NCBI GenBank assembly: GCA_016931355.1
Contig: JAFGEX010000061.1
Location: 1 to 40,669 of the forward strand
Direction: 5' to 3'
Length of the DNA stretch: 40,669 nucleotides
Origin: a bacterium
GTDB taxonomy: Bacteria; Zhuqueibacterota; QNDG01; JABMRT01
The translations under genes were made by a program, and so were the position numbers. The notes under the pieces are model-generated. The model had not been told where the DNA came from. It made no database searches and saw only the letters and a program-made list of their open reading frames with translations. Shown piece after piece: positions 5,558 to 40,669 of the stretch; positions within the stretch are counted from its first letter, which is position 1, and every line of letters starts with the position of its first letter.

Positions 5558-6664
5558 TCAGAATATTTCCTCCAGTTCCATGGCTGCAAAATGGGATTCG
5601 CGCACCGTTTTACGCCTGCGCGCGGATCGGGGCTGGTTGTAAACGTAACGTTTGCCTTCGTAATTGCGCAGAATCACCTCTTTGTCCGTGATGCTCTGCA
5701 CGTACTCGGGCAGCAGCGGGATCTTCCCCCCCCCGCCGGGCGCATCGATCACAAAATGGGGCACCGCGAGTCCGGAGGTCCAGCCGCGCAGGGCCTTGAT
5801 GATCTCGAGGCCTTTTTCAACGCGCGTTCGGAAATGTTCGGTGCCGAAAACCATGTCCGCCTGGTAGATGTAATAGGGACGCACGCGGGCCTGGAGAAGC
5901 TTCTGCATGAGTTTTTTCATGACCTCCGGATCGTCGTTGACGCCTTTAAGCAGGACGGTCTGGTTCCCGAGCGGGATGCCCGCATCGGCCAGGCGTCCGA
6001 GCGCCTCTACGGCGGGCGGCGCAAGCTCGTCCGGATGGTTGAAATGCACATTCATGAAAAGCGGATGGTACTGCTTGAGAACCTGGACCAGTTCAGGTGT
6101 GATGCGCTGGGGCAGGAAGCAGGGCACGCGCGTTCCAATCCTGAGGATCTGGATGTGCGGAATGCTCCGCAGATTCCGCAGAATGTAATCGATTTTATCA
6201 TCGGGCAGCAGCAGGGGATCCCCGCCGGAAATGATCACGTCGCGTATCTCCGGATGATCCCCGATATACTGGATGCCCTCGTCGATGTAACGCATGCTGA
6301 TCTTGGACGGATCCCCGACCTTGCGCTTCCGGGTGCAGAATCGGCAGTAGGAGGCGCAGACCGGAGAAACCAGGAAGAGGCATCTGTCCGGATACCGGTG
6401 CACAATATTGTTCACCGGTGAATCCTGGTCCTCCCCCAGGGGGTCTTCAAAGAGTTCGCCGTCCTCCAGTTCCCGGATGTCCGGGACCACCTGTTTGTAG
6501 AGGGGATCCCCCTTTTCCTTGATCAGTGAAAGATAATAAGGGGTGATCTTGATGGCAAAATGCTTTTCCATTTTCTGCATCTGGTCCAAAGGAATGTCGA
6601 ACTTTTCCGACAACGTTTTGGCATCCGAGATGCTGTCCTTCAAGATCTTTTGCCATGAGTCCAT
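5558..6664 (-). CDS. kamA: KamA-family radical SAM aminomutase (lysine 2,3-aminomutase-like)
   Basis: HRYPDRCLFLVSPVCASYCRFCTRKRKVG (CxxxCxxC), ISGGDPLLL, RVRPYYIYQADMVFGTEHFRT, FVIDAPGGGGKIP, KEVILRNYEG. The clostridial LAM C-terminal Cys cluster is absent. Confidence 0.93.
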   Translation of the reverse strand: MDSWQKILKDSISDAKTLSEKFDIPLDQMQKMEKHFAIKITPYYLSLIKEKGDPLYKQVVPDIRELEDGELFEDPLGEDQDSPVNNIVHRYPDRCLFLVSPVCASYCRFCTRKRKVGDPSKISMRYIDEGIQYIGDHPEIRDVIISGGDPLLLPDDKIDYILRNLRSIPHIQILRIGTRVPCFLPQRITPELVQVLKQYHPLFMNVHFNHPDELAPPAVEALGRLADAGIPLGNQTVLLKGVNDDPEVMKKLMQKLLQARVRPYYIYQADMVFGTEHFRTRVEKGLEIIKALRGWTSGLAVPHFVIDAPGGGGKIPLLPEYVQSITDKEVILRNYEGKRYVYNQPRSARRRKTVRESHFAAMELEEIF

Positions 6665-6700: not shown

Positions 6701-7177
6701 CTACAGGCGCTTGACGAAAATCAGCCTGTCGTCTCCTGTTTTGTAAAAATCCTTGATCCGTGCCTCCAACGCATACCGGTTGCTCTGGTAGAACTGCTGT
6801 GTCGGCTTGTATTTCTTCTGTGAAGAGGTTTCAATGATGATGATCTTCCCCTGCTTCTGAATGACCTGCTGCTCCACAAACTGGAGAAGGGTTTTTCCGA
6901 TCCCTTCCTGCTGTCTGTCGGGAGACACGGCGATCCAGTACAGATCATAGGTGCCTTCCGTCGCCGGGGTGGGACCGAAGCAGACGTATCCGACTACATT
7001 CTTTTTATCCTCCGCGGCCACATAGATGAGATAATCCTTCTGATCCTTGTTGAACAGGTAGCAGTCGATCAGCTCCATGGCCACTTCGATCTCGGGCATT
7101 GTGAACATATCCGTCTGCTGCAGGATCTCATAGAGGGCGCTTCGGTCGCCCGGGAGCATTTTCCGTATGTCAATCAC
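6701..7177 (-). CDS. GNAT-family N-acetyltransferase
   Basis: DLYWIAVSPDRQQEGIGKTLLQFVEQQ: acetyl-CoA binding Q/RxxGxG/A-like motif; next to kamA. Confidence 0.87.
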   Translation of the reverse strand: MIDIRKMLPGDRSALYEILQQTDMFTMPEIEVAMELIDCYLFNKDQKDYLIYVAAEDKKNVVGYVCFGPTPATEGTYDLYWIAVSPDRQQEGIGKTLLQFVEQQVIQKQGKIIIIETSSQKKYKPTQQFYQSNRYALEARIKDFYKTGDDRLIFVKRL

Positions 7178-8189
7178 GCGGCCTCCTTTGATAGGCCAGA
7201 TCGATGAGGAGGTTTACGAATTCCGCGTAAGGGATCCCCGCAGCCTTCAGGCCCTTCGCATAACCGGCATCCGGCGAAATGTCCGGATTGGGATTGTATT
7301 CCAGCACGAATATCTTTCCGGCGGAGTTGACCCGGACATCGATCCGGCCGTAATCCCTGCCGTTGAGGAGCCGGTACACCTGCAGGGCGACATTCTTCAA
7401 TTTCGTCCTGAGCTCGCTCCGGATGGGCGCCGGGCAAACGGAAGGCGTCCTCCGGTACATGGGATGGGACTCGATCCACTTGGCTTCATAACTCGTGATA
7501 TGCGGTTCGCCTTTCCGGAGCGCCGAAAAATCGATCTCGGAAACAGGGAGCGCCTTCGGGGGATAATTGCCGAGAATGCCGATGTTGAATTCCCGGCCTT
7601 CGATGTATTTCTCCACCAGTACGGGCTGGTGATAGAGTCTCAATAAAAATTGAACCTTTTCCTGCAATTCCTCCAGATTATGAACCACGGCATCGTGGGA
7701 GATGCCGAGGCTGGCGTCCTCGGATGCCGGTTTGGCGATGAGCGGATATTTCAACGATGACCTTCTGGGCTCCGACGTATAAACCTCGTAGGGAGGCGTA
7801 CTGATTTTCCGCGATTCGAAAATCTGCTTGGACAGCACCTTGTTCTGCGCGAATCCCAGGGTGAGGGCCGGATTCCCCGTATAGGGAATACCCAGCATTT
7901 CCCATATGCCGGCCACGTGCATCTCGTTTCTCGAACTGCCGCGGTAACCCTCGCAGAAATTGAAGATGACATCCGGCCTGCGCCGCCGGATTTTCGGGAC
8001 ATCCGTCACAATGTTTTCAAGTTCGAATATCGCGACCGTATGCCCTGCCTCCCGCGCCGCCTCGGTCACGGCACTGACCTCCTGCGAGACGGCTTCCTCG
8101 GAAATGGAGTCCACCGCAGACTGCGGCAGCTGTCCGGATTGATTATAGACGACGAGCACGCGGTATCTTTTATTCTTGGGCCGCTTCAC
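7170..8189 (-). CDS. D-Ala-D-Ala ligase-like ATP-grasp enzyme (second in operon)
   Basis: YPLIAKPASEDASLGI, VLVEKYIEGREFNIGILGN, YGRIDVRVNSAGKIFVLEYNPNPDISP. Confidence 0.9.
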   Translation of the reverse strand: MKRPKNKRYRVLVVYNQSGQLPQSAVDSISEEAVSQEVSAVTEAAREAGHTVAIFELENIVTDVPKIRRRRPDVIFNFCEGYRGSSRNEMHVAGIWEMLGIPYTGNPALTLGFAQNKVLSKQIFESRKISTPPYEVYTSEPRRSSLKYPLIAKPASEDASLGISHDAVVHNLEELQEKVQFLLRLYHQPVLVEKYIEGREFNIGILGNYPPKALPVSEIDFSALRKGEPHITSYEAKWIESHPMYRRTPSVCPAPIRSELRTKLKNVALQVYRLLNGRDYGRIDVRVNSAGKIFVLEYNPNPDISPDAGYAKGLKAAGIPYAEFVNLLIDLAYQRRPRD

Positions 8190-9283
8190 GTCCGGATCCC
8201 CCAGCGTTCCGCTGCGATGCCGATGACTTTTTCGAGCATGGCCGCATAATCGTATCCCGCCGTCCGGGCCGCCTTCGGGAAACAGGAGTTATCCTCCGGT
8301 TTCGGAAGAATGCCGGGCAGCGGATTCAGTTCGAGAATGTGCGGTTTTCCGCTCTGATCCATTCGAACGTCGATCCTGCACCAGTCGCGGATATTCAGGA
8401 CGCGAAAGGCTGAACGGACCAGCGATTCAATGGACTCCTTTTCGACCCGGGTCAGGGAAGCCGGGCATTTGAAAATGTCCAGCGGTTTTCCCGGCGTATC
8501 CCAGATCCACTTGGCCTCGTAAGAATAAACGGGCCTGGCGCCTGCCGGCAGGTCATCGTACCGGATGGCGACGATCGGCAGCACCTCAATTTGATCGCCG
8601 TTCCCCCACAGCGCAACCGTGAATTCGTCACCCTGGAGAAACTGCTCCATGAGCACCGGCTGCCGGTACTTCAAGAAGGCGTCGTTGATTTGCCGGACCG
8701 CCTCCTCCCCGTTATCGACCACGGAATGGTCGAAAATGCCTTTGCTGCTTCCCTCCGCCACCGGCTTGATGATGGCCGGAAACGGAAAGTGATCCATATG
8801 GACCGGAAAATCCGGATCAAGCGTGCGGAATGCGGGGGTCGGAATGCCGTTGTAAGCGAGCACCTCTTTTGCCCTGGCCTTGTTCAGGCAGATCGCCAGT
8901 TCCAGGGGTCCGGATCCCGTGTAGGGGATCCCCATCCTTTCACAGATCATCGGCACGTAGGATTCCCTGAAATCGCCGAAAAGTCCTTCTGCAATGTTGA
9001 ACACAAGTTCCGGCTTGGCGGACTTGATTTTTTCTCCGGCTTCTTCATCCGCCTCGATGCCCGTCACCCTGTGCCCGTTGCCTTTCAGGGTTTCCAGGAT
9101 ATGCCGGATGGTGGTCCATGAATCGCCCTCTGCAAAAAAATCTTCAGGCGTTTCCGAATCTCCCGCAGGGTATCTCCTGCGGTATTCTTTCTCCAAGCCT
9201 TCCTTGCTGCTGTACGCTAAAACCAGATTCAAGTCTTCTCCGTCACAAAAACAATTTGTTTTTTGATTTTCTACAACGATCAT
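8186..9283 (-). CDS. D-Ala-D-Ala ligase-like ATP-grasp enzyme (first in operon); true start may be TTG at 9232
   Basis: FPAIIKPVAEGSSKGI, VLMEQFLQGDEFTVALWGNG, WCRIDVRMDQSGKPHILELNPLPGILP. A GGAG Shine-Dalgarno lies 5 nt before TTG at 9232. Confidence 0.9.
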   Translation of the reverse strand: MIVVENQKTNCFCDGEDLNLVLAYSSKEGLEKEYRRRYPAGDSETPEDFFAEGDSWTTIRHILETLKGNGHRVTGIEADEEAGEKIKSAKPELVFNIAEGLFGDFRESYVPMICERMGIPYTGSGPLELAICLNKARAKEVLAYNGIPTPAFRTLDPDFPVHMDHFPFPAIIKPVAEGSSKGIFDHSVVDNGEEAVRQINDAFLKYRQPVLMEQFLQGDEFTVALWGNGDQIEVLPIVAIRYDDLPAGARPVYSYEAKWIWDTPGKPLDIFKCPASLTRVEKESIESLVRSAFRVLNIRDWCRIDVRMDQSGKPHILELNPLPGILPKPEDNSCFPKAARTAGYDYAAMLEKVIGIAAERWGIRT

Positions 9284-9287
9284 GCCA
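9273..9287 (-). promoter_or_regulatory. Candidate sigma54 (-24/-12) promoter TGGCATGATCGTTGT
   Basis: Reverse strand TTTTGGCATGATCGTTGTAG: GG-N10-GT spacing; differs from TGGCAC-N5-TTGC at two positions. Confidence 0.6.
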
Positions 9288-9375
9288 AAACAATTGCGAA
9301 ATTTTTTAAATCATAGTTTTCAATTATTTACAAATATAACAAAATAATGTTTTTCTTCTGGGAATCCGGATATAT

Positions 9376-9388
9376 TCTCAATATGATA
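9376..9388. promoter_or_regulatory. Candidate activator site A, TCTCA-ATA-TGATA
   Basis: 13-bp inverted repeat, read directly. Confidence 0.65.
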
Positions 9389-9415
9389 AAAAAAACGATT
9401 TGCGGATTACAGGTC

Positions 9416-9428
9416 TCTCATTTTGAGA
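9416..9428. promoter_or_regulatory. Candidate activator site B, TCTCA-TTT-TGAGA (perfect 5-bp arms)
   Basis: 13-bp inverted repeat; centre exactly 40 bp from site A. Confidence 0.65.
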
Positions 9429-9455
9429 AAATAAAAAGAAATTGAAAAAAAATTT

Positions 9456-9468
9456 TATCATTATGATA
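9456..9468. promoter_or_regulatory. Candidate activator site C, TATCA-TTA-TGATA (perfect 5-bp arms)
   Basis: 13-bp inverted repeat; centre exactly 40 bp from site B. Confidence 0.65.
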
Positions 9469-9569
9469 GATTTTTAAAAGGATTTCGAATGGGTAAAAGG
9501 ATCGGATGGATTTTTTTCAGCTGCAGATTGAAGGTTCCCGCAGCAAGCGAAGGAAAATGCGATCGCGTA

Positions 9570-9676
9570 TCAAGTGAGGTTTCCCGCCGCAACCGGCGGG
9601 GAATCATCAAAGGGCAGGGAGAAGAACGTCTGGATTCGCTCGCTTCCTTCGCGGCATGCCGAAGGAGAATGCGCGC
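9570..9676 (-). repeat. REP/MITE-like palindromic element, copy 2
   Basis: The reverse complement gcgcattctccttcggcatgccgcgaaggaagcgagcgaatccagacgttcttctccctgccctttgatgattccccgccggttgcggcggga aligns with copy 1. Confidence 0.75.
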
Positions 9677-9753
9677 GCCTCAAGATACAATCTGCCGGCA
9701 TGCGCATCCGCCGCATCGAACCGACGGCGAGCGGGACATGATTCTTTTCCGGT

Positions 9754-11109
9754 TTAATCCTCCAATTGATACTCTTTGATCTTTCTGTACAGGGTCGCCA
9801 GTCCGATGTCCAGGGTTCTGGCCGCTTTCTGCTTATCGTCTTCATGAAACTGCAGCGTTTTCTGAATCACGAGTTTTTCAATGTCCATCAGGGTCATGCC
9901 GATCTCAACCCCGATTTTTTTCTCCATTTCGGTGCCGAAAGAGACAAGTCCGGGAAAATGATACGGCTTGAGGATATTCTCGTTGCAAAGCACGACCGCA
10001 CGTTCCACCATGTTCTCCAGTTCGCGCACATTCCCCCGCCAGGGATGGCGAAGGCACATTTTGATGACATCGGGATCGATGCCCTGTACATTCTTCTGGT
10101 TCACTTCGTTGTATTTCTCAATGAAATGCTGGATCAGAAAGGGAATGTCCTCCGACCTCTCCCGGAGGGGCGGAACCCGAATGGAAATCACGTTCAGCCT
10201 GTAAAACAGGTCCTCCCGGAAGGTCCCGTCCGCCACCCTTCTCTCCAGGTCCGCATTGGTGGCTGAGATGATGCGCACATCCAGTTTGAGCGTCTCCGTT
10301 CCGCCCAACCTTTCGAACTCCCCGTCCTGCAGGAAATGGAGGAGTTTGGCCTGGGTCATGAGGTTCATGTCCCCGATTTCATCCAGGAACAGCGTCCCCT
10401 CCTCCGCCATTTCAATCTTTCCCTTTTTCTGCTTCACCGCTCCGGTGAAGGCCCCCTTCTCATAACCGAACAGCTCCGCCTCGAGCAGGTTTTCAGGAAT
10501 GGCGCAGCAATTGATTTTAATGAAAGGCTTTTCATTTCTCTGGCTCCGGTGATGGATGAGGAAGGCGATGACCTCCTTGCCGGTCCCCGTCTCGCCCGTG
10601 ATCAGAACCGTACTCCTGGAGGTCGCCACCTGCTCCGCGAATTCCAGAATGTTTTTGAACTTCCGGCTCACACCGACCGGCTGGGGAAAAGACTTTTCCA
10701 TCTGAAGGACTTTTCGAAGCCTCTCGTTCTCCCTGCGGAGTATCACGTTTTCGCCGATGCGCTTGATCAACCGCTTCAGATCCGCGATCCGGAAAGGTTT
10801 GACGAGGTAATCGGCCGCGCCGGCGCGTATCGCCTCCACCGCGGACTCCACGGATCCGAATGCGGTGATGATGATGACTTCGATCTGCGGAAAATGCTCC
10901 TTGACGTATTGCAGGATTTCGAGGCCGGACCCGTCCTTGAGTTTGAGATCCGTCACCACGATGTCCGGGTGTTTGGCCTCCAGATGATGCATGCTCTCCT
11001 TGTAGGAGGATACGGCATGGATGTGTAATTCTTTGCCCTCGAGACTCATTTTCAAGGCCTGCAGGGCATCCACATCGTCGTCGACGAGAAGCAGGTTCAA
11101 GGCATTCAC
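9754..11109 (-). CDS. NtrC-family sigma54-dependent response regulator
   Basis: Receiver LLLVDDDVDAL..VVTDLKLKDGSG, AAA+ GETGTGKE and GAFTGA (GYEKGAFTGAVKQ), C-terminal Fis-type HTH. GTG start overlaps the kinase stop. Confidence 0.95.
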   Translation of the reverse strand: MNALNLLLVDDDVDALQALKMSLEGKELHIHAVSSYKESMHHLEAKHPDIVVTDLKLKDGSGLEILQYVKEHFPQIEVIIITAFGSVESAVEAIRAGAADYLVKPFRIADLKRLIKRIGENVILRRENERLRKVLQMEKSFPQPVGVSRKFKNILEFAEQVATSRSTVLITGETGTGKEVIAFLIHHRSQRNEKPFIKINCCAIPENLLEAELFGYEKGAFTGAVKQKKGKIEMAEEGTLFLDEIGDMNLMTQAKLLHFLQDGEFERLGGTETLKLDVRIISATNADLERRVADGTFREDLFYRLNVISIRVPPLRERSEDIPFLIQHFIEKYNEVNQKNVQGIDPDVIKMCLRHPWRGNVRELENMVERAVVLCNENILKPYHFPGLVSFGTEMEKKIGVEIGMTLMDIEKLVIQKTLQFHEDDKQKAARTLDIGLATLYRKIKEYQLED

Positions 11110-12680
11110 GGATTTTCTCCTGGATTCCACAAGGGCAGGCTGATGGTAAAGCAAGTCCCCTGATCAGGGTCGGACCGGACGGTCATCCGGCCCCGGTGCG
11201 CTTCCACGATTTCCCTGGAAATAAAAAGACCGAGGCCTTCTCCCGCCGGCTTGGTGGTGAAAAAGGGTTCGAAGATTTTTTTGAGATGATTCGGATCGAT
11301 CCCCGGCCCGTTGTCCCGTATCTGGACGAGCAGCCTCTTCCGGCGCCGCCGGATGGAAATGGCGATGCATCCGGAGGGCCCGAGGACCTCGAACGCATTC
11401 TGAATCAGATTGGTGAACACGCGCTTCAACTGGAGCCAATCCGCCAGTATCCAAAAAGGTGTCCTCGGCTTTTGAAACCGGACCTGGACTTTTTTGACCG
11501 AGGCTTCGTAGCGGACGTCCTCCAGCATGTCGGTCAGATGGATGCTGATGTTCTCCGGCTGCATGTGCAGTTCGGTCAGATGCGTATAGGCCAGATAATG
11601 GTTCAGGCTCTGCGAAAGCTGATGAACCTGACGCTGGATCTTGTCGATCAGGTCCTGCGCCTCCGGCTTGATGCTCCCGTGATCCTTCATCAGCATGGAT
11701 TCCAGAAGCTCGGTGTTCAGCCCGATCGTGTTCAGCGGATTCCGGATATCATGCATCATGGCGCTGGTCAGGCGCGAAATGGTGGTCAGCTTGTCGATTC
11801 GCTTGACCTGCGACGAAAATTTTGATTTCTCGCCGACTTCCTGGAAGAGGATGACGAAGCAGATTTTCCCAAGGTAGGCTTTCCTGAAAACGCGGACGGA
11901 AACGAGGGCTGCAAACGTGCCGCCTTCCTTGAGCCGGATCCGCAGATGCATATGGATGCGGCCCCGCGATTCGGTGCTCAGTTTCTCGAGAAACAACTTC
12001 TGCGAGGGCCCGTGCAGGATTTCCTGAAATTTCTTTTTGAGAATATCGGAGGGTTGAAAACCGGTCAAAACAACGGCCATGGGATTCCAGTGAAGGACAT
12101 TGAGGGCCTCATCACAGTCCGCGACGCCGATCGGAAATTCCTTGACGATCTGGTAAATGGCGTTGAGCTGGCTCTGCAGGTCGTTTTTAACGATGCTGAG
12201 TTCTTCGATCAGCTGCCGGTCCTTCTGCTGCCTCTCCAATACCCATCCCAGCCAGCGCTCCCGCGTGACGGAGGAGGCGCGGTTCAGAAGCTCGAGGACC
12301 GGGAGGAGGCTGATCGTCACCGGCGCTCCCTTTGAACCGATTTCGTCCAGGGGAATGCGGCCCACCTGAAGCATGAAACCGGACAACAACCCCAGCAACG
12401 CGGGGAAATGCGCCATGTCGCCGGACTGGACGGGCCAAAGAGCCTGAAGCGCCTTGTTGAAACCCTGTCCGAAATCACCGGCTTTTTCCGTCCGGCAATC
12501 CTCGGCCAGCTTCGCTGCAAGCGTGCGGATCCAATCCCTGCGCATTTCAATGGGGATGTTCGATGCGGAATCCGCGGATTCCCCGGCAGACGCGATGCGA
12601 TCCGCTAATGCCTCCTTGTGGCGTTCGAGCCATTGACCCGCCCGGTCCAGCAGCTCCCGGTCGAAACCGTCTGAATTCAT
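11106..12680 (-). CDS. Soluble sensor histidine kinase with PAS-like domain
   Basis: H-box SAMMHDIRNPLNTIGLNTELL, N-box NLIQNAFEVLG, DNGPGID, GEGLGLFISREIV; no TM segment. ATGA overlap with the upstream gene at 12677-12680. Confidence 0.93.
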   Translation of the reverse strand: MNSDGFDRELLDRAGQWLERHKEALADRIASAGESADSASNIPIEMRRDWIRTLAAKLAEDCRTEKAGDFGQGFNKALQALWPVQSGDMAHFPALLGLLSGFMLQVGRIPLDEIGSKGAPVTISLLPVLELLNRASSVTRERWLGWVLERQQKDRQLIEELSIVKNDLQSQLNAIYQIVKEFPIGVADCDEALNVLHWNPMAVVLTGFQPSDILKKKFQEILHGPSQKLFLEKLSTESRGRIHMHLRIRLKEGGTFAALVSVRVFRKAYLGKICFVILFQEVGEKSKFSSQVKRIDKLTTISRLTSAMMHDIRNPLNTIGLNTELLESMLMKDHGSIKPEAQDLIDKIQRQVHQLSQSLNHYLAYTHLTELHMQPENISIHLTDMLEDVRYEASVKKVQVRFQKPRTPFWILADWLQLKRVFTNLIQNAFEVLGPSGCIAISIRRRRKRLLVQIRDNGPGIDPNHLKKIFEPFFTTKPAGEGLGLFISREIVEAHRGRMTVRSDPDQGTCFTISLPLWNPGENP

Positions 12681-13621
12681 GACCGTCCTTCCCGAACTTC
12701 CGGCCGGTTTTCCAGGAGTTCCCGGATGGCATGGATGATCCACCCGGACAAATCCTCCACGAGCCGGTCCGGAACGCCGTCCGGATGCCTGGATTCAAGA
12801 CGCATGTCGCATGATTCGTTGACATAGTCGATGACGATGTCCCTTCCATCCGACATCCGCGCGATTTCGGTTGAGAAGAAACGCAGTCGGCATATGGATG
12901 CGATTTTCCGGATGACCGCCTCGAGGGATTCCAGCCGGTAACGGGACATTTCGCCCGATTCGACGATCCGGTACCGGTGGGTCCTGTCATCCCACCAGGC
13001 GCAGCGGATCAGACCGAAGGCAAAGAAACCCCTGAACCAGAAACGCAGACCGTCCCTTTCCAGGGGAAGAACCTTTTCCTGGAGCAGGTATTTGTCGGAA
13101 CGGAACTCCTGTCTGGCGCGGAGTACATCCTGAAGGGTTTCGGCGCCATCCACGACACCGATCCCCCCGCCGGTCGTGTTGGCCGGTTTGATGATGAAAG
13201 GCCTGCCCAGAAGCGCCAGATCCGCCAGGGAAAGCTGTATATCGGCCGCGGACTGGAAAGGCGGAAGAATGATGGTATAGGGTGTCAACAAGCCCTGGGA
13301 GATGAATTCCAGGTGCATGGTGGCCTTGTCAGACGCCCACGCGAGCCTTGAAAGCGGTTCTATGATTTCAGTACCGGAAGAGGCGCAGGCCGCCTGCAGG
13401 CGGTAAAAGTCCGGATGCGTGTCCGAGGCTCTGTCCAGCAGGCAATGGAAAGTCAGTTTCTTCTCTTCCACACCGCGCAGTGTTTCCCTGAGATTGCGGG
13501 TGTCAATGATCCAGACCTTGAGGCCTTCCCTGCCGGCCAGGTTCCCCAGCCTTTCTACAAAATCCTGATCATATTCCCAATCATAGGCAATGGCCAGATC
13601 GAATTCAACGGATTCGTTCAA
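12677..13621 (-). CDS. RimK-like ATP-grasp protein (third ATP-grasp of the locus)
   Basis: LLGRPFIIKPANTTGGGIGVVDG, YLLQEKVLPLERDG, FFSTEIARMSDGRDIVIDYVNESCDMR; TTG start preceded by AAGGGG. Confidence 0.78.
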   Translation of the reverse strand: MNESVEFDLAIAYDWEYDQDFVERLGNLAGREGLKVWIIDTRNLRETLRGVEEKKLTFHCLLDRASDTHPDFYRLQAACASSGTEIIEPLSRLAWASDKATMHLEFISQGLLTPYTIILPPFQSAADIQLSLADLALLGRPFIIKPANTTGGGIGVVDGAETLQDVLRARQEFRSDKYLLQEKVLPLERDGLRFWFRGFFAFGLIRCAWWDDRTHRYRIVESGEMSRYRLESLEAVIRKIASICRLRFFSTEIARMSDGRDIVIDYVNESCDMRLESRHPDGVPDRLVEDLSGWIIHAIRELLENRPEVREGRS

Positions 13622-40040: not shown

Positions 40041-40669
40041 TCAATCCTCCATCATTTCCCTCGGGTCCGTGATTCTCCCGGTCAATGCTGAGGCTGCCGC
40101 GGTGAGCGGAGAAGCCAGGAACGTTTTCGATCCCCTGGATCCCATTCTTCCGGGAAAATTGCGGTTCGTGGTGGAGATGCACACTTCGTCGTGGTTCAAC
40201 CGCCCGAACGTATCCTCCGGCCCGCCGAGACAGGCTGCGCAGGAAGGAGGCCCGATCGCAGCGCCGGCTTTTTTGAAGATCTCTGTCAGGGTCTGACCTT
40301 GAATCTGCTCCGTATCCAGGGCTTCCGCAACACGCCGCGTGGCAGGCACGATCACCGTCTTGATCCGCACCTCCTTGTTTCGCAGAATCGACGCCGCAGC
40401 CCTGAAATCCGTCACCTTGCCTCCGGTGCAGGAGCCGATATAGCATTGATCAAGGCGGACGTCCTTCAACTCCCGGGCCGGTTTGACCCGGGCCGGAGAG
40501 AAAGGCTGTGCGACCAACGGCTCTAAAGAACCGGCCTGGTATTCGCGTTTCGCGGAATAAACGGCCCCCGGGTCGCTCTCAAGGGATTGAAGCTCCCCGC
40601 CGCAAGCGGCGGGGAATCTTCGATCTGTAGGGAAAAATTTGTTTGTATTCGCTCGCTTACCCCGCGGCA
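40041..40669 (-). CDS. leuC: 3-isopropylmalate dehydratase large subunit, C-terminal part (N-terminus beyond window)
   Basis: IGSCTGGKVTDFRAAA, IVPATRRVAEAL, AAIGPPSCAACLGG. The frame stays open upstream: ..SLESDPGAVYSAKREYQAGSLEPLVAQPFSPARV. Confidence 0.9.
   Translation of the reverse strand, partial: PRGKRANTNKFFPTDRRFPAACGGELQSLESDPGAVYSAKREYQAGSLEPLVAQPFSPARVKPARELKDVRLDQCYIGSCTGGKVTDFRAAASILRNKEVRIKTVIVPATRRVAEALDTEQIQGQTLTEIFKKAGAAIGPPSCAACLGGPEDTFGRLNHDEVCISTTNRNFPGRMGSRGSKTFLASPLTAAASALTGRITDPREMMED
40586..40669 (-). repeat. REP/MITE-like palindromic element within the leuC frame (runs off window)
   Basis: The reverse complement tgccgcggggtaagcgagcgaatacaaacaaatttttccctacagatcgaagattccccgccgcttgcggcggggagcttcaat aligns with copy 1. 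Confidence 0.8.

Follow-up and report, generated by a model that had tools for sequence, protein, structure and literature searches.

Three evenly phased palindromes as the putative sigma-54 enhancer of an ATP-grasp/GNAT/KamA operon in a KSB1 bacterium and its relatives

In the 40,669-nucleotide stretch of bacterial DNA analyzed here (the window), an operon encoding two ATP-grasp ligases, a GNAT acetyltransferase and a KamA-like protein is preceded by three short palindromes, which are very probably the docking sites of a co-occurring two-component activator that would switch the operon on. More specifically, the palindromes would constitute the sigma-54 UAS of this ATP-grasp/ATP-grasp/GNAT/KamA operon and would be worked by the adjacent kinase/regulator pair through one hexamer, a reading to which a probability of roughly 0.88 is assigned. 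The sites, their phasing, the promoter, the regulator domains, the conservation of the array and its co-occurrence with the regulator are all read from the sequence.

All three palindromes are exact matches to TMTCANNNTGAKA. The distal site 1 (9456-9468, TATCA-TTA-TGATA, centre 9462) lies at -174 from the -24 element of a predicted sigma-54 promoter, the central site 2 (9416-9428, TCTCA-TTT-TGAGA, centre 9422) at -134, and the proximal site 3 (9376-9388, TCTCA-ATA-TGATA, centre 9382) at -94. An earlier note on this DNA had described palindromes with these centres, 40 bp apart and about 95, 135 and 175 bp upstream of the -24 element; all were located where it had placed them, and the distances measure 94, 134 and 174 bp from the first base of that element. 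The exact 40-bp phasing that it reported holds in the window, but elsewhere neighboring sites lie 40 or 41 bp apart, or 42 bp in some secondary arrays.

That the sites are chance palindromes is a thought prompted by the AT-richness of this intergenic DNA and by their individual shortness. The array sites are the only matches to TMTCANNNTGAKA in the 40.7-kb window, where shuffled sequence averages 0.09 matches and three were never reached in 100 shuffles. In the 300 bp that precede the -24 element, the top three-site array shows 0 of 24 mismatches, and 200 local dinucleotide shuffles never gave fewer than 6, so that the shuffling of this AT-rich stretch proposed in the earlier note came out in favor of the array. 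Taken with the conservation of the array in place across phyla, these figures make an origin by chance extremely improbable. The scan for other sites in the 3.9-Mb genome, also proposed there, did return five additional exact matches, with a reversed-pattern control giving one per strand; all five are single, a second pair of sites at 39-42 bp is absent from the rest of the genome, and no further convincing array was found. A wider regulon in this genome was consequently discarded, the five matches being unpaired and the next-best match to the array profile outside the locus being weak (E 0.006).

Toward the operon, on the minus strand, the stop codon of the regulator gene at 9754 is followed by the three sites, the promoter TTGGCATGATCGTTGTA and the first gene. 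This -24/-12 promoter of the sigma-54 type (9288-9272, minus strand) scores 16.5 on a -24/-12 matrix, versus 2.2 for the runner-up within 900 bp; its -12 dinucleotide is GT, not GC, and GT is also found in most orthologues. Judged from the -12 position, transcription would start near 9261. All genes of the operon lie on the minus strand. The first encodes a D-Ala-D-Ala ligase-like ATP-grasp ligase (8186-9232, PF07478) and begins with TTG at 9232, the position from which the orthologous proteins align, with a GGAG-like ribosome site upstream of it; an ATG at 9283 falls within the promoter. It is followed by a second ATP-grasp ligase of the same kind (7170-8189, PF07478), a GNAT acetyltransferase (6701-7177, PF00583) and a KamA/AblA-like lysine 2,3-aminomutase of the radical SAM type (5558-6664, PF04055 and LAM_C), a gene order that is kept in most related loci. 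The last protein scores above the cut-off of TIGR00238 and below that of TIGR03820 (AblA). Synthesis of N-epsilon-acetyl-beta-lysine by AblA/AblB was considered and set aside: since the AblA cut-off is not reached and no beta-lysine acetyltransferase model is among the GNAT matches, a beta-lysine product is not claimed for the operon. Neither lysine nor aminomutase nor ATP-grasp is mentioned in a paper on the Desulfovibrio sigma-54 regulome.

Among about 80 related loci, the order ATP-grasp/ATP-grasp/GNAT/KamA is conserved in many phyla, including KSB1, Calditrichota, Lentisphaerae, Aminicenantes and Ignavibacteria, and in some cases a RimK-like ATP-grasp gene lies nearby; in some Deltaproteobacterial loci the RimK-like gene is present and a KamA match is absent. 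Between the regulator gene and the enhancer lies a copy (9575-9692), without a match in Rfam, of a GC-rich dispersed repeat that is about 105-120 bp long and forms REP-like hairpins (CCCCGCCGCAAGCGGCGGGG...); a further copy is located at 40588-40669, and the genome holds at least 40 matches, mostly 72-81% identical. An RNA element at 9100-9900 was likewise sought in Rfam and dropped, no match being obtained.

Upstream regions were then compared among orthologous operons, gathered partly from GTDB species genomes, many of them fragmentary MAGs. About 15 orthologous operons have a strong sigma-54 promoter (score of at least 13) close to the first gene. The palindromes of the array precede nine of these, the window counted, as well as one promoter with a score of 9.5 (L046). 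Eight of the resulting ten promoters, again including that of the window, carry three sites, and those of G014 and G022 the two proximal ones. Across the ten loci the array centres fall near -174, -134 and -93 relative to the promoter. All 18 intervals within the arrays measure 40 or 41 bp (SD 0.5 bp), as compared with an SD of 1.5 bp for the distance from array to promoter, and 89-94 bp separate the proximal centre from the -24 element. Conservation is highest at the central site, and the distal site has a matched counterpart in seven other orthologous promoters. In each of the ten, none of 200 dinucleotide shuffles of the respective upstream sequence gave a three-site array as good as the best natural one. 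Comparable arrays are absent from the 81 other orthologous upstream regions, where the best candidates have at least 6 of 24 mismatches versus 0-4 in the ten. As the generalized pattern TNTCANNNTGANA was chosen after inspection of the orthologues, these counts within the operon are partly fitted; the part independent of pattern fitting consists of the genome-wide profile search and the co-occurrence with the regulator. The array-bearing MAGs are labelled either KSB1, the phylum of the window (through G058 and G041), or Caldithrix/Calditrichaeota, and since the latter genomes are absent from the 82-genome listing of the window's phylum, at least two phyla would be represented.

A half-site asymmetry is seen in the ten promoters, although the sites are nominally palindromic. 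Read toward the operon, the promoter-distal half TNTCA has 1 mismatch in 28 sites and the promoter-proximal half has 14, with the same direction in all seven loci where the halves are unequal.

The presence of the array follows that of one regulator lineage. According to tblastn searches with the proteins of the window, array loci with enough flanking sequence carry a regulator 59-67% identical to that of the window; loci lacking the array have either no regulator or a distant one at 37-46% identity. Within the phylum, an orthologous regulator occurs in 10 of 82 genomes (the window's own and others at 57-67% identity), and in every one of these an array lies close to the regulator or to its operon; one further match, at 47% identity, is without array. 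The recognition region of motif-linked regulators is nearly invariant, with LQIGLATLYRKIKEY in most orthologues; regulators beside operons without the motif have a different one, for example GIGVRQLHKLMTKYG. A profile built from seven arrays gave strong matches only at the operon or in the neighborhood of the regulator in these genomes, and it recovered arrays outside its training set in G059 (6.5e-8), G122 (1.8e-7) and G051 (1.2e-6). Counting against the association are G017, G069 and G080, which have pair matches to the pattern and are without the regulator.

The prediction of the earlier note that the motif would be conserved upstream of the operon where the regulator is kept is borne out in nearly all cases, with spacing constant to ±1 bp. 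Where the orthologous regulator is missing, so is the motif. In three genomes of one family (G059, G051 and G037) the array has moved away from the ATP-grasp operon, which is left without one, to other promoters beside the regulator; arrays there lie on either side of the regulator's gene pair, one of them before a GNAT gene.

Second arrays, divergent from the kinase gene, are found in G014, G022, G026, G051, G059 and G037 (L138 7947-8001, L139 3273-3327, L140 7657-7711, L134 6604-6698, L135 6182-6276 and L136 293-387). Their spacing is 41-42 bp, and each is accompanied by a sigma-54 promoter that points away from the kinase gene at 83-92 bp from the array end. The gene facing them encodes a small lipoprotein, which is DUF4398-like by Pfam in G014 and G051 and by sequence in G022 and G059, and in both genomes checked (G014 and G059) it is followed by a gene for a YkuD L,D-transpeptidase. 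Because relatives carry the array at the DUF4398 lipoprotein gene, the homologue in the window's genome (C12) was inspected; array and sigma-54 promoter are both absent there. Arrays at the lipoprotein/L,D-transpeptidase pair in two other families may hint at an envelope role, without showing one.

These distributions bear on the question of which protein reads the sites. A different, unlinked transcription factor, such as a repressor or a global regulator, could bind them while the neighboring regulator acts elsewhere; the motif is, after all, simple, AT-rich and palindromic, with a consensus similar to that of another regulator, SypG (PMC10162802). Such a factor would hardly be expected to track the orthologous regulator as the arrays do, down to flanking its gene pair at new targets in two other families, and the restriction of arrays to only one or two promoters per genome fits a global factor poorly. 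This explanation is therefore considered improbable, and the adjacent regulator is retained as the proposed ligand.

Four operons without this regulator (G073, G044, G001 and G007, at loci L011, L012, L016 and L018) have a sigma-54 promoter that is preceded not by the array but by a CGGAAYTNNRARTTCCG-like palindrome with 1-2 mismatches each, 60-72 bp upstream of the -24 element. With up to two mismatches allowed, CGGAAYTNNRARTTCCG is absent from 90 other upstream regions, and three of the four operons adjoin a second kind of NtrC-type regulator. Regulator and site appear to have been exchanged together at these operons; built from these very loci, the CGGAAYTNNRARTTCCG consensus offers a lead, not a test.

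The proposed ligand of the sites is encoded at 9754-11109 (minus strand). In agreement with the NtrC-type activator gene that the earlier note had placed next to the sites, it is a response regulator with a receiver domain (PF00072), an AAA+ domain for sigma-54 activation (PF00158) and HTH_8 (PF02954), the GAFTGA loop being present in its translation, and the genome of the window encodes sigma-54 itself (PF04552, 200 bits). Its probable partner is the PAS histidine kinase encoded at 11106-12680 on the minus strand (PF02518/PF00512/PAS). Just upstream of the kinase gene lies a RimK-like ATP-grasp gene (12677-13621, minus strand, weak TIGR00768 match), homologues of which recur near the operon in other genomes; its stop codon overlaps the likely kinase start at ATGA, and this ligase-like gene may therefore be translationally coupled to the sensor-regulator pair.

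On these grounds the following course of activation can be envisaged. The histidine kinase would phosphorylate the adjacent NtrC-type response regulator, dimers of which would bind to the three sites by way of their HTH_8 domains, perhaps cooperatively. In B-DNA geometry, 40-41 bp correspond to about four helical turns; hence, the sites face nearly the same way, and three dimers set about four turns apart on roughly one face of the DNA would be placed for joining into one AAA+ hexamer. By looping of the 90-bp spacer, the hexamer would contact RNA polymerase-sigma-54 at 9288-9272 and would open the promoter with ATP. This is in line with what is described for group I bEBPs, which attach to enhancer sites, assemble into hexamers and remodel RNA polymerase-sigma-54 (PMC7057263). 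Binding, phosphorylation, hexamer assembly from three dimers, looping, and activation rather than repression are what the arrangement of sites, promoter and regulator would suggest.

The role of the constant spacing is open to two interpretations, each of which is advanced tentatively. The array might act as a rigid template by which three dimers are positioned to build exactly one AAA+ ring; selection may then have held the spacing constant to ±1 bp, in different phyla and in the secondary arrays alike, while the spacer sequence drifted freely, a possibility that is likewise put forward with some reserve. Tighter spacing within the array than between array and promoter is what would be expected if the array is rigid and the spacer only needs to loop. 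Alternatively, and with comparably limited confidence, only one or two sites would matter, as in a normal tandem UAS, with the third being a weak accessory and the 40-41 bp phasing having no role in hexamer assembly. The superior conservation of the central site would agree with this, as would the weak proximal sites of G038 and G041 and the distal sites missing from G014 and G022, on account of which three sites may not be strictly needed; the retention of three-site spacing to ±1 bp in eight loci despite diverging spacer sequence is less easily accommodated. For the rigid template and its alternative alike, the constant three-site, four-turn layout would offer a clean natural system in which the number of dimers needed per sigma-54 activator and the templating of the hexamer by DNA could be approached.

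Several known systems share individual traits with the array. The closest in motif is the enhancer used by SypG in Vibrio fischeri, TTCTCANNNTGMDWN (PMC10162802, citing Ray et al. 2013). Palindrome geometry and nearly identical letters are common to both systems, and each combines a group I NtrC-type response regulator with a sigma-54 promoter. The SypG consensus TTCTCANNNTGMDW is matched exactly by two window sites, the proximal one among them, and with one mismatch by the third. The comparison is one of motif and not of regulator sequence: organism, operon and regulator are different, the strictly phased three sites are a trait of the window, and SypG targets polysaccharide (syp) genes, whereas the window operon encodes ATP-grasp, GNAT and KamA proteins. 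The LuxO sites upstream of the qrr genes, TTGCAW3TGCAA (PMC11443567), are also 5-3-5 palindromes bound by a group I bEBP, with one or two of them upstream of the sigma-54 promoter. The LuxO half-site is TTGCA, however, and site number, position and conservation vary among qrr genes, in contrast to the constant spacing of the window-type array; the regulator at 9754-11109 reaches 373.5 bits with the LuxO NCBIfam model, below the cut-off of 800. NorR at norVW would provide the mechanistic analogue, its three enhancer sites being essential and scaffolding a higher-order oligomer according to PMC2941729 (citing Tucker et al. 2010), which is the mechanism proposed for the window array. The NorR sensor is a GAF domain, that of the window regulator a receiver domain, and the score with the NorR NCBIfam model is 306 bits, below the cut-off of 476. 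At crcZ/crcY, CbrB has three subsites that share one helix face and precede sigma-N promoters (PMC6296734), but these subsites are non-palindromic and variably spaced by 20-25 bp. Summarizing, the kind of motif, with the letters of SypG and the geometry of LuxO, and three-site enhancers as such are already known; new are the predicted regulon, a layout of three sites at four-turn intervals that stays constant across phyla, and the pairing of motif and regulator lineage. For an uncharacterized, widespread operon, a dedicated regulator can be proposed in this way, together with the motif that it would bind and a small regulon.
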